From an uncultured bacterium (GTDB taxonomy: Bacteria; Actinomycetota; Coriobacteriia; Coriobacteriales; Coriobacteriaceae): a stretch of 64,000 nt of DNA. The position numbers were made by a program, and so were the translations under genes. Below are positions 46,007 to 48,398 of the stretch, piece after piece; the stretch's first letter is position 1, and every line of letters begins with the position of its first letter. The stretch covers positions 1 to 64,000 of the forward strand of contig CAJMKK010000002.1 in assembly GCA_905214105.1 (NCBI GenBank). Direction: 5' to 3'. The notes beneath the pieces are model-generated. The model made no database searches, was not told where the DNA came from, and saw only the letters and a program-made list of their open reading frames with translations.

Positions 46007-46696
46007 TTACTTTTTACGGTGCAAGAAGCGCGCGATATCTTCTTCGGTGGGGCTTTTGATGTCAAAGCGCAGCGAGAGCCAGCGCAGACCCATGGTCACG
46101 ACAACGCATACGACCAGCGCGGCGACATTGCTCATAATGCCGCTCATAACGAGACACACATAGCTTGTCGATCCGGCGATGGCGGCGATGGCATAAAAGT
46201 TAGTACGTTGGAAAATGCCCGGAACCACGCCCATAAAGCCATCGCGCAACATGCCGCCGCCCACCGCGGTGAAAAAGCCCATCATGATGCACACCGCCGG
46301 TGCAAAGCCGTAAACCAGCGCCTTGTCTGCGCCGGTTGCCGCATAGATGCCGACCGAGATGATGTCGAGCAAGGGGATGAGTTTTTCGGGCTTGTCGACG
46401 ATTGCCGGGAAAATGTAGATGATGGCTGCCGTGGCGATGGAGAGCGGCAACGCCATTGGCTGGTTGAGGATGTAGACGTTGCCCACCTGCAGCGTCATAT
46501 CGCGCAAAAGACCGCCGCCCAGACCGCAGACCACCGCGAGCGCAACTGCACCCACCAGGTCGAGCTTGTGCTCGCGCGCAACCAACACACCCGAGATCGA
46601 TGCAGCGACAACAGCGAACATCTCGAGCCAAAACGGAATGGCGACCATGGCATCCGATGCATGTGAGGTAATGGTCATAGCGGCGACGACGGGCAA
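46007..46696 (-). CDS. Trimeric intracellular cation channel (TRIC/UPF0126) family protein
   Basis: A 229-residue polytopic membrane protein with seven predicted helices and the family's internal duplication: GLGGGLLRD in the first half and AVGGGMLRD in the second. Bacterial TRIC homologues conduct potassium-like cations. The TTG start is favoured because AAAGGA lies seven bases upstream; an ATG six codons later is an alternative. It is followed by the bactofilin-like gene in the same direction. Confidence 0.88.
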   Translation of the reverse strand: MPVVAAMTITSHASDAMVAIPFWLEMFAVVAASISGVLVAREHKLDLVGAVALAVVCGLGGGLLRDMTLQVGNVYILNQPMALPLSIATAAIIYIFPAIVDKPEKLIPLLDIISVGIYAATGADKALVYGFAPAVCIMMGFFTAVGGGMLRDGFMGVVPGIFQRTNFYAIAAIAGSTSYVCLVMSGIMSNVAALVVCVVVTMGLRWLSLRFDIKSPTEEDIARFLHRKK

Positions 46697-46831: not shown

Positions 46832-46907
46832 AACATGTACGTCACGCTCCAAAAACGACATTTTCCGACATCTTTGAAGGCTGACGTACATGTTTGGATT
46901 GAGCTCA
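46832..46907 (+). repeat. Left copy of a 76-bp inverted repeat
   Basis: It matches the reverse complement of 48020-48095 at 71 of 76 positions. The unit is itself a hairpin, with perfect 12-base arms ACATGTACGTCA/TGACGTACATGT at either side of its core and an outer GGATTGAGCTCA facing the gene. Confidence 0.93.
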
Positions 46908-47000
46908 CAGCATGAGTGAGTTGATTTACTCACATCCGGTATATTTCCCCACTTCAACGGACATAAGAGTTGGATACCGGCTCAGAGCGAGAGGCCCTCA

Positions 47001-48008
47001 ATGGATACCCCTGTTCTCATTTCGCATAAAACCGCATGGCTTGTCCATCATGCACCCCAGAATTTGGTTCAGTCTCTTGCGCGGCACGACTACCAGATAG
47101 GCGCACAAGGCATCTCCACCCAGCAACGCGTTGCGCGCGTACGACAGGCCCTTATCGACTGCGGCATTCCGTCCGATATGCTTAAGACTATCGATATCGC
47201 GGTTGTATTCGAATTCGAGCGAATTCGCACCAAAGGCGTCATTTGCCACATGCTTGGACAAAATCTTCCCTACGAGCATATTAACGAGTTGACGCCCGGA
47301 GTCTTCATCACCGACGAAGCCTTCACCTTCGTGCTCGCTGCCGAGTGGATGGATAGGATCGAATATCTCGAATATGGCTATGAAGTTTGCGGCGATTATC
47401 GCATGAGGCTCAATCCCGCCGACCCTTATACCGAGCAACCAGCCACCACCTCCAAGGATGAAATAACCGAACTGCTCGATCGGCACCCCGGCAAACCCGG
47501 TGCCACACGTGCACGGCTCGCGCTCAGGCACATCTACGATCACTCGGCCTCGCCTATGGAGACCGCTTCGGCAATTGCCCTCTCGCTCCCAACAAGCGAA
47601 GGCGGCGTTGGCATTCGAGGTATCGAACTCAACAAACCGCTCGAGATCCCTCAACGTCTCTGGCATTGCGCCAAAGCTCGAACACTCAAAATCGATGCGC
47701 TCGTGACCTATAAGCGCAGGGGGCTCGGTATCGAATATAAGGGCGGTTTTCACGATGAGCTCGAGCGCAAGGGAGCAGATGCGGAGCGAGAGGCCGTTCT
47801 CTCCCAAATGGGATATCGAATCGTTACGCTCACTTCGGCTCAGTTCGGCAGCCAGCTCGCCTTTCACCGCGCCATGAACAACATTCGCGAAGCGCTCGGC
47901 ATGCCTCGCTGTACCGACACCGGTTACCAGCGAGAGCAAAACGAACTACGCAAGGCGCTAATCCGCAACTGGAAAGGCATGCGAGACGAAGAGGCGCCTT
48001 CCGAATAG
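47001..48008 (+). CDS. Predicted PD-(D/E)XK (DUF559/Vsr-like) nuclease-type protein inside an inverted-repeat cassette
   Basis: A 335-residue protein. Residues 1-75 look like a DNA-binding helical part (TQQRVARVRQALIDCGI). The middle carries GATRARLALRHIYDHSASPMETASAIAL, a segment shared by AbiEi-like/DUF559 proteins. The C-terminal region LKIDALVTYKRRGLGIEYKGGFH has the spacing of a PD-(D/E)XK core (Asp, then E-x-K), followed by VLSQMGYRIVTLTSAQ as in very-short-patch-repair-type nucleases. GAGAGG lies before the ATG. It is the only gene between two 76-bp inverted repeats. Activity is a prediction. Confidence 0.75.
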   Translation: MDTPVLISHKTAWLVHHAPQNLVQSLARHDYQIGAQGISTQQRVARVRQALIDCGIPSDMLKTIDIAVVFEFERIRTKGVICHMLGQNLPYEHINELTPGVFITDEAFTFVLAAEWMDRIEYLEYGYEVCGDYRMRLNPADPYTEQPATTSKDEITELLDRHPGKPGATRARLALRHIYDHSASPMETASAIALSLPTSEGGVGIRGIELNKPLEIPQRLWHCAKARTLKIDALVTYKRRGLGIEYKGGFHDELERKGADAEREAVLSQMGYRIVTLTSAQFGSQLAFHRAMNNIREALGMPRCTDTGYQREQNELRKALIRNWKGMRDEEAPSE

Positions 48009-48019
48009 TGCCACTCCCG

Positions 48020-48095
48020 TGAGCTCAATCCAAACGTGTACGTCAGCCTTCAAAGATGCCGAAAAATGTCGGTTTTGGAGGGTGACGTACATGTT
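48020..48095 (-). repeat. Right copy of the 76-bp inverted repeat
   Basis: It begins 11 bases after the nuclease-like gene stop and mirrors the left copy with five mismatches. Without a long T tract it is not an ordinary terminator, though it may stop transcription from either side. Confidence 0.93.
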
Positions 48096-48130
48096 TGGGG
48101 AAGCGTGGGATCGAGATGTATTTCGATAAC

Positions 48131-48168: not shown

Positions 48169-48259
48169 TGGCGGAGGAGGAGGGATTCGAACCCTCGTGA
48201 CCTTATACAGGCCAAACGGTTTTCGAGACCGCCGCATTCAACCACTCTGCCACCCCTCC
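48169..48259 (-). tRNA. tRNA-Ser (anticodon CGA)
   Basis: A 91-base tRNA with the long variable arm of serine tRNAs, acceptor GGAGGGG/CTCCTCC, anticodon loop CTCGAAA and encoded GCCA end. Confidence 0.96.
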
Positions 48260-48307: not shown

Positions 48308-48398
48308 TGGCGGAGAGTCAGGGATTTGAACCCTGGAGACGCTTTTGACGCCTACACGATTTCCAATCGTGCTCCTTCGGCCACTCGGACAACTCTCC
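48308..48398 (-). tRNA. tRNA-Ser (anticodon GGA)
   Basis: A 91-base class II tRNA with acceptor GGAGAGT/ACTCTCC, anticodon loop TTGGAAA and encoded CCA. Shares direction and layout with the adjacent tRNA-Ser(CGA). Confidence 0.96.

Follow-up and report, generated by a model that had tools for sequence, protein, structure and literature searches.

Within the window (the whole 64,000-nt stretch of DNA that was analysed), a single gene encoding 335 aa lies between the two arms of an inverted repeat, in the interval separating a Gly_transporter gene from a pair of tRNA-Ser genes (Table 1). Repeat search of the window delimits the inverted pair to 46832-46908 and 48019-48095 (77 nt, 94% complementary, spacing 1110 nt), bearing out the original prediction of 76-bp arms that match at 71 of 76 bases and enclose one gene. 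Each arm contains a hairpin, as also predicted, with a stem of 22 nt on the left and 25 nt on the right and 19 nt between. Folded as RNA, the left arm has an MFE of -28.8 (z -3.9) and the right arm one of -51.0 (z -9.0), and for neither arm did any of 200 shuffles fold equally well. On the gene side, 13-14 nt of each arm lie outside the hairpin. Because the left arm of genome G011 has a different inner flank, the arms may owe the full length of their 77-nt match to exchange at a later stage. The motif TGACGTACATGTT, at up to two mismatches, occurs seven times in the window against 0.88 expected, and four of the seven are arm ends. If the promoter of the gene is inside the arms, it would lie in the leader.

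The organism is of the Collinsella aerofaciens type, order Coriobacteriales; the seven named contigs with close copies belong to C. aerofaciens or Collinsella sp., and the genome nearest to the window, G001, has 57% of sampled 31-mers in common with it. The two tRNAs are the only known RNA families in the window above their gathering scores. A match of the right arm to mir-160 was rejected at 23 bits (gathering score 48).

Table 1. Positions of the cassette and its neighbours in the window
Feature	Position	Strand	Basis or remark
Gly_transporter (PF03458) membrane protein, left neighbour of slot A	46007..46696	-	Pfam; used as anchor
Left arm: palindrome 46832-46894 (type-1 hairpin) and about 14 nt of shared inner flank	46832..46908	-	Repeat search, folding; 97% identity with the G001 left arm
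Leader, left hairpin to ATG	46909..47000	+	98.1% mean identity in 7 genomes vs 90.4% just outside the arm
Putative nuclease gene, 335 aa	47001..48008	+	ORF listing, Pfam, relatives
First part of the gene, ahead of the nuclease domain	47001..47546	+	
Predicted nuclease domain, residues 184-301, Vsr/EDxHD/DUF559 type; D232, E245, K247, H251, D260	47550..47903	+	
Right arm: palindrome 48030-48098 and inner flank	48019..48098	+	Repeat search, folding; one of the sequences behind model R1
tRNA-Ser(cga), right neighbour of slot A	48169..48259	-	
tRNA-Ser(gga)	48308-48398		Beyond tRNA-Ser(cga)

In Pfam the protein matches MTES_1575 (E 4.4e-5, below the gathering score) and DUF559 (E 0.09). Structure comparison finds the nearest solved fold to its nuclease domain in the EDxHD homing endonuclease I-Bth0305I, and the domain model has an EDxHD/PD-(D/E)XK core in a Vsr/EDxHD-like fold. 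The Pfam matches, and then the structure, support reading the protein as a nuclease, in keeping with the PD-(D/E)XK-type core first proposed. With Foldseek alone, neither the whole model nor the N-domain matched a PDB entry at E <= 0.001. In structural alignment the N-domain could be matched to the C-terminal domain of AbiEi alone (6y8q, 64-195), with no match to the AbiEi winged-helix DNA-binding domain; the idea of an AbiEi winged helix reading half-sites was dropped for this reason. The AbiEi/DUF559-type assignment that had been offered as a guess nevertheless fits a model with one AbiEi C-terminal-like and one DUF559/EDxHD-like domain. Lack of conservation of the catalytic residues had been named as grounds against the original prediction, but all 10 close copies have the same nuclease-type residues. 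The copy in G008 differs from that in the window by 8.1, 5.7 and 28.7% at codon positions 1, 2 and 3, so the gene appears to be under purifying selection.

Alleles of the tRNA-Ser slot

The interval from Gly_transporter to tRNA-Ser (hereafter slot A) was examined in 19 genomes, namely the window and 18 hairpin-carrying genomes of the genus; the further hairpin carriers are G027, whose contig ends there, G036, G042 and G043. The cassette lies forward, as in the window, in seven of the 19 and is reversed in three (G005, G008, G037). Four genomes have one hairpin and no gene (G012, G029, G039, G041), and five have neither hairpin nor gene, with only a short remnant (G007, G018, G019, G024, G031). 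The search for occupied and empty sites suggested at the outset thus finds nine of 19 genomes without the gene at slot A. A locus at the same place in all strains would have counted against mobility; the 10 close copies do share slot A, but those nine genomes lack the gene there. A classical TIR transposon would have terminal inverted repeats with a target-site duplication and would move to new sites; as the original prediction had remarked, no duplication is seen at slot A, and the 10 close copies are all in one slot. On the tRNA side, about 200 bp are missing from the cassette alleles and present in seven of the nine cassette-free alleles, so the swap is not clean there and, on this comparison, the slot has undergone more change than a simple replacement.

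An inverted fragment of the tRNA-Ser 3' end (GGCGGGTTCGAA...) is found about 60 bp from tRNA-Ser in all nine cassette-free alleles (G007, G012, G018, G019, G024, G029, G031, G039 and G041). It is absent from the right flanks, read up to the tRNA, of nine cassette alleles.

Among the seven forward copies the gene differs at 3.5% of four-fold sites (21 pairs). Measured likewise in the same genomes where the stretch was covered by sequence, eight of 10 neighbouring genes (named by Pfam) diverge by 6.5-19.6%: orf149 19.6%, orf397 17.8%, Gly_transporter 16.4%, dnaB 14.4%, typA 10.5%, purA 9.1%, gyrA 8.7% and ssb 6.5%. Only the ribosomal-protein genes rplI (0.9%) and rpsF (0.6%) fall below the nuclease gene. 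Forward and reversed gene copies differ by 30.7% at four-fold sites, whereas for the neighbours the same comparison reaches at most 22.3% (Gly_transporter), with dnaB at 11.7%. With the reversed copies so diverged, mere conservation of the gene is an unlikely cause of the low forward divergence. Nor do the reversed copies form a single allele: the gene is the same in G008 and G037, and G005 differs from both by 33.1%.

Non-coding identity falls from 98.1% inside the arms to 90.4% outside on the left and 90.5% on the right, the arms themselves being 92.1% and 95.9% identical among forward carriers. Identity is 95.7% over the near half of the Gly_transporter gene, 100% in the tRNAs and 97.7% over the 102 nt past the tRNAs, so the right side has no sharp identity edge. 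The left outer flank is 90.6% identical among forward carriers, 88.0% among hairpin-free genomes and 87.5% between these groups. These values are read here as transfer between genomes of a unit whose limits lie at the hairpins or close to them. Comparison of the alleles shows a cassette that has been exchanged between genomes, that occupies one slot in both orientations and that collapses to, or starts from, a single palindrome. The minimal mobile or selfish cassette of the original prediction gains support from its presence and absence and its two orientations in one slot, from a similarity beyond that of eight of 10 neighbour genes, and from the hairpin pairs that relatives of the gene have of their own.

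Hairpins at other sites and across the family

Arm-like DNA occurs in 16 of 58 relatives, all within the genus. A covariance model of the type-1 hairpin, built from 32 copies with 17 pairs, finds it under strict filters in at least 22 of 43 genus genomes, at about 2-6 places per genome (4-13 matches, most places being counted on both strands). Arms that are ordinary strain-wide repeats would have counted against the original prediction, and this applies in part, in that arm-like hairpins occupy other conserved sites of the same genomes. Placed copies fall into four orthologous slots: A, that of the nuclease cassette; B, at dus/glutaredoxin; C, at PHP/nickel-insertion protein; and D, upstream of CDP-alcohol phosphatidyltransferase, with a coaBC-like DFP gene adjoining in some genomes and another gene pair in others. 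Three further hairpin loci were left unplaced by anchor genes. In stretches of 2 to 7.5 kb, slot D has one hairpin in 18 of 18 genomes and slot C, where it sits between divergent genes, has one in 17 of 18; the remaining genome, G039, has two hairpins there around a 1185-aa double ABC transporter (L128 1674-6044). No nuclease of the window's family was seen between solitary type-1 hairpins outside slot A in the stretches examined.

Slot B often has two hairpins flanking an RHH gene, and some genomes carry different cargo there. The RHH gene has diverged to the same degree as dus (23.4% and 22.6%, respectively) and so is probably old, with loss where one hairpin remains; the notion that all slot cargo is mobile was abandoned on these figures. 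Between two slot-B hairpins, G039 carries SIR2-like (below cut-off) and Macro-domain genes together with a PNPOx/ferredoxin-like gene and a radical SAM/SPASM gene (L127 1689-5846), and a similar radical SAM gene lies just outside the hairpin pair in G018 (L126). A Mutator-family transposase gene interrupts the second slot-B hairpin of G011 (L133 2634-4144). In G008 a similar long ORF is found at each slot-B hairpin (L129 1989-3278 and 7051-8223); it is not a second dus copy, there being a single dus around this slot. At slot-B loci (L004 and others) the short motif AGTCATTTAAGAACGTCCCCAATGACT and its variants stand ahead of many hairpins and are repeated with them.

Within the type-1 stem, four pairs show paired changes, with 24 cells changed on both sides, and the covariation score is 0.165 against 0.094 in shuffles (0/500; for the number of pairs, 17/500), counts that related copies inflate. 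As judged from these counts, pairing in the stem is maintained through changes on both sides. Template-switch repair of imperfect palindromes could yield such changes without selection.

A second hairpin type (ACCATCACAACATTCGA...) accompanies a 345-residue paralog (355-aa open frame), with copies in 21 of 29 genomes searched. Two type-2 hairpins flank the paralog gene in G001, and in G007, whose best family match is another paralog, one such hairpin joins exactly the outer flanks to give a one-hairpin empty site. The standard hairpin is found with nine of 12 proteins (95-98% alike), G024 having one copy in the stretch examined. Proteins L024 and L027, which are 95% identical to one another and 90-94% identical to the nine, have ACCGTCCCAACATTCGA instead, with two exceptions: downstream of L027 the hairpin is the standard one, and upstream of L024 the match is only partial. 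The L216 protein (84-88%) has ACCGTCCCAAAAATCGATG on both sides, and the standard stem, save for single changes, is retained by the two further hairpin copies that this genome has in the same stretch. Since hairpin variants follow protein variants, the type-2 hairpins appear to travel with the gene, a pattern that linkage alone could also yield. At L260 (13238-14563), direct copies of another small hairpin (ACCACCACAAAGGTGCCTGG...) stand on either side of an MFS gene that adjoins a solitary type-2 hairpin.

At other loci too, relatives of the nuclease gene are enclosed by matched hairpins, whose sequence is different. For 91 members, the 500 nt ahead of the gene were compared with the 500 nt behind it and the best match was scored; 70 of the members came from a first relative search (30 loci and 40 hand-picked in rough order from the matches listed, near copies omitted) and 21 from 30 loci of a phylum profile search with duplicates dropped. 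Under thresholds fixed after the first loci had been viewed, which makes the counts descriptive, strict hairpin pairs are found in 33 of 87 Coriobacteriales members and 3/4 outside the order, and lenient pairs in 41/87 and 3/4. The strict rule was used because the lenient one passes barely palindromic repeats (L230, L272, L286). Control genes gave 0/225 strict and 4/225 lenient pairs, the four being one MFS gene (Pfam) in four genomes beside a solitary type-2 hairpin. These controls were ORFs of at least 200 aa, taken longest-first (some possibly antisense; 72 clusters) from the surroundings of slot A, of the second-type slot and of Gly_transporter loci. Not included among them are the slot-cargo loci L211-L215, where four genes scored 52-80 for matched flanks. 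When the upstream flank of a member was set against the downstream flank of another cluster, 0/1500 pairings gave a strict pair.

The members form 65 protein clusters at 60% identity, of which 26 have a lenient pair and 19 (three outside the order) a strict one, leaving 46 without a strict pair within 500 bp. Among the 12 clusters at least 34% identical to the window protein, 10 have a strict pair, L036 has a lenient pair only and L037 lacks both. Palindromes span 56-80 bp in 13 of 26 representatives, the others being longer or barely palindromic. Hairpin similarity follows protein similarity weakly over the clusters (Mantel r 0.13, 313/5000), and the close relatives L032, L033 and L025 have hairpin ends in common. 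Short DUF559 proteins gave 0/15 strict and 1/15 lenient pairs and long ones from other actinobacteria 2/15 and 4/15, low scores that argue against a pattern general to DUF559. In Pfam the family belongs to MTES_1575/DUF559, with no Transposase_17. The A2 profile places it in 17 of 198 genomes of the phylum, 13 in the same order and four, as weak matches, outside. A phage origin was rejected, with no arm DNA match or protein match in phages and none in viral contigs, and so was a plasmid origin, as two plasmid-collection matches are only 31% and 27.5% identical; the first agrees with the G008 contig in length and in match position.

Possible origin and spread of the cassette

The preferred reading, at a probability of about 0.5, is a hairpin-bounded nuclease cassette, one of a family with lineage-specific palindromes, that spreads in a homing-like manner within a RAYT/REP-like layout. 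The unit would run palindrome, leader, nuclease gene, palindrome. A nuclease dimer would recognise the palindrome of about 60-75 bp, either as an extruded hairpin or as a pair of inverted half-sites, and would nick or cut it within the spacer; with a palindrome-gene-palindrome donor as template, repair would then copy the cassette into a one-palindrome site. Because the site is symmetric, entry could take place either way round, and recombination between the two palindromes of a cassette would delete it and leave one palindrome behind. This account draws on the states of slot A, the low forward divergence and the drop in identity from 98.1 to 90.4% at the arms. It draws equally on stem covariation, matched pairs across the family as against controls, purifying selection, the second-type empty site of G007 and the hairpin variants that follow protein variants. 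The nuclease core is also nearest to a homing endonuclease, of an EDxHD family described as dimerising on nearly 60 bp (PMC3943268).

Several observations sit less easily with homing-like spread. Two intact palindromes remain beside the gene, and solitary hairpins occur at conserved places without a family nuclease. The site of a homing enzyme is normally destroyed by insertion. The RHH cargo has not spread recently, the swap on the tRNA side of slot A is not clean, the reversed allele of G005 is distinct, hairpin and protein similarity are only weakly correlated over clusters, and 46 of 65 clusters lack a strict pair; moreover, of AbiEi only the C-terminal domain, and not the winged helix, is matched.

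Several of these points are expected if the repeats are passive, i.e., old REP-like palindromes at a few intergenic sites whose contents are gained, lost and inverted by ordinary homologous recombination and the frequent gene exchange of this species complex, the nuclease having no part. Such recombination is a serious rival, unlikely as it seems overall: it accommodates hairpins without nuclease at conserved sites, non-nuclease cargo between two hairpins at slots B and C, RHH cargo as diverged as dus and the matched flanks of the four genes at L211-L215. It leaves unexplained why the members of a single nuclease family, at loci that are unrelated and also in other genera, have matched pairs of unrelated sequence around them, when the 225 controls have none under the strict rule, and why hairpins track protein variants, although linkage could bring that about.

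Could the palindromes instead be operators of the gene they enclose? The protein would then be a repressor, like AbiEi on the inverted repeats of its own promoter, and would loop upstream and downstream copies together, with solitary copies forming a small regulon, and the intergenic position of the latter beside conserved genes would suit this, as would an upstream hairpin about 80-125 nt ahead of the start in several close groups. AbiEi and Rv2827c are reported to bind 23-bp inverted repeats (PMC7319586). Autoregulation is nonetheless improbable here, as it requires neither the second, downstream hairpin nor a single-hairpin empty site, does not explain exchange and reversal, and meets upstream distances of 184-368 nt in other members. 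Still more remote is an AbiEi/DUF559-like defence gene insulated by paired terminators, the alternative of the original prediction. The AbiEi-like domain speaks for it, as do weak PADLOC matches in other members (mREase_II 3/44, best E 3.7e-6; DpdF 5/44, best E 0.0018), but the window protein has no PADLOC match and the arms enclose no second gene, hence no AbiEii partner. The terminator part is weak, since neither arm hairpin is followed by a T-run, the slot-C hairpin lies between divergent genes and terminators would not need matching sequence.

As a mobile cassette, the unit resembles RAYT/REP most closely in layout, with an unrelated nuclease. RAYT genes are described as always flanked by two inverted REPs; there too the gene for a DNA-processing enzyme lies between two matching palindromes that are lineage-specific yet still palindromic, and further copies are scattered in the genome (PMC2817692). 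REP palindromes usually number more than 100 per genome. Unlike RAYTs, which are IS200/IS605-type tyrosine transposases (Transposase_17), the enzyme here is PD-(D/E)XK/Vsr-like, its palindromes are mostly about 56-80 bp, few per genome and paired directly or inversely, and the cassette shows reversal and one-palindrome empty sites. I-Bth0305I provides the nearest solved fold and has a long reported target of nearly 60 bp (PMC3943268), but no intron or intein is seen around the gene here, two whole palindromes remain beside it and its N-domain is AbiEi-like. For AbiE (type IV), it is reported that AbiEi binds inverted repeats and that full-length protein, including the C-terminal domain which the N-domain resembles, is needed for autoregulation (PMC7319586). 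In contrast to AbiE, no AbiEii nucleotidyltransferase gene lies between the arms, the neighbours being Gly_transporter and tRNA-Ser, the AbiEi winged helix is unmatched, and a nuclease is fused.

Integron gene cassettes with attC hairpins are likewise single-gene cassettes bounded by imperfect palindromes; here, unlike there, hairpin pairs vary between members of one gene family. No account of such a hairpin-bounded nuclease cassette was found in the open-licence literature, and the cassette looks like a small mobile gene unit of a kind without a description there. More tentatively, at somewhat under an even chance, the family may constitute a new selfish class. Each nuclease, an AbiEi-like module joined to an EDxHD core, would read its own palindrome of about 60-75 bp, cut solitary palindromes and copy the cassette in either orientation, and the palindromes left over would then offer other genes, in Coriobacteriales and outside the order, a place to land or be exchanged. 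Should the enzyme read its own hairpins, a layout like that of RAYT/REP would have arisen a second time with an unrelated nuclease. This would give the functionally obscure DUF559/MTES_1575-like proteins of the group a testable job, and would help to account for the gain, inversion and loss of single genes at fixed positions in common bacteria of the human gut. For specificity tests, the 19 clusters with strict hairpin pairs of their own form a ready set.
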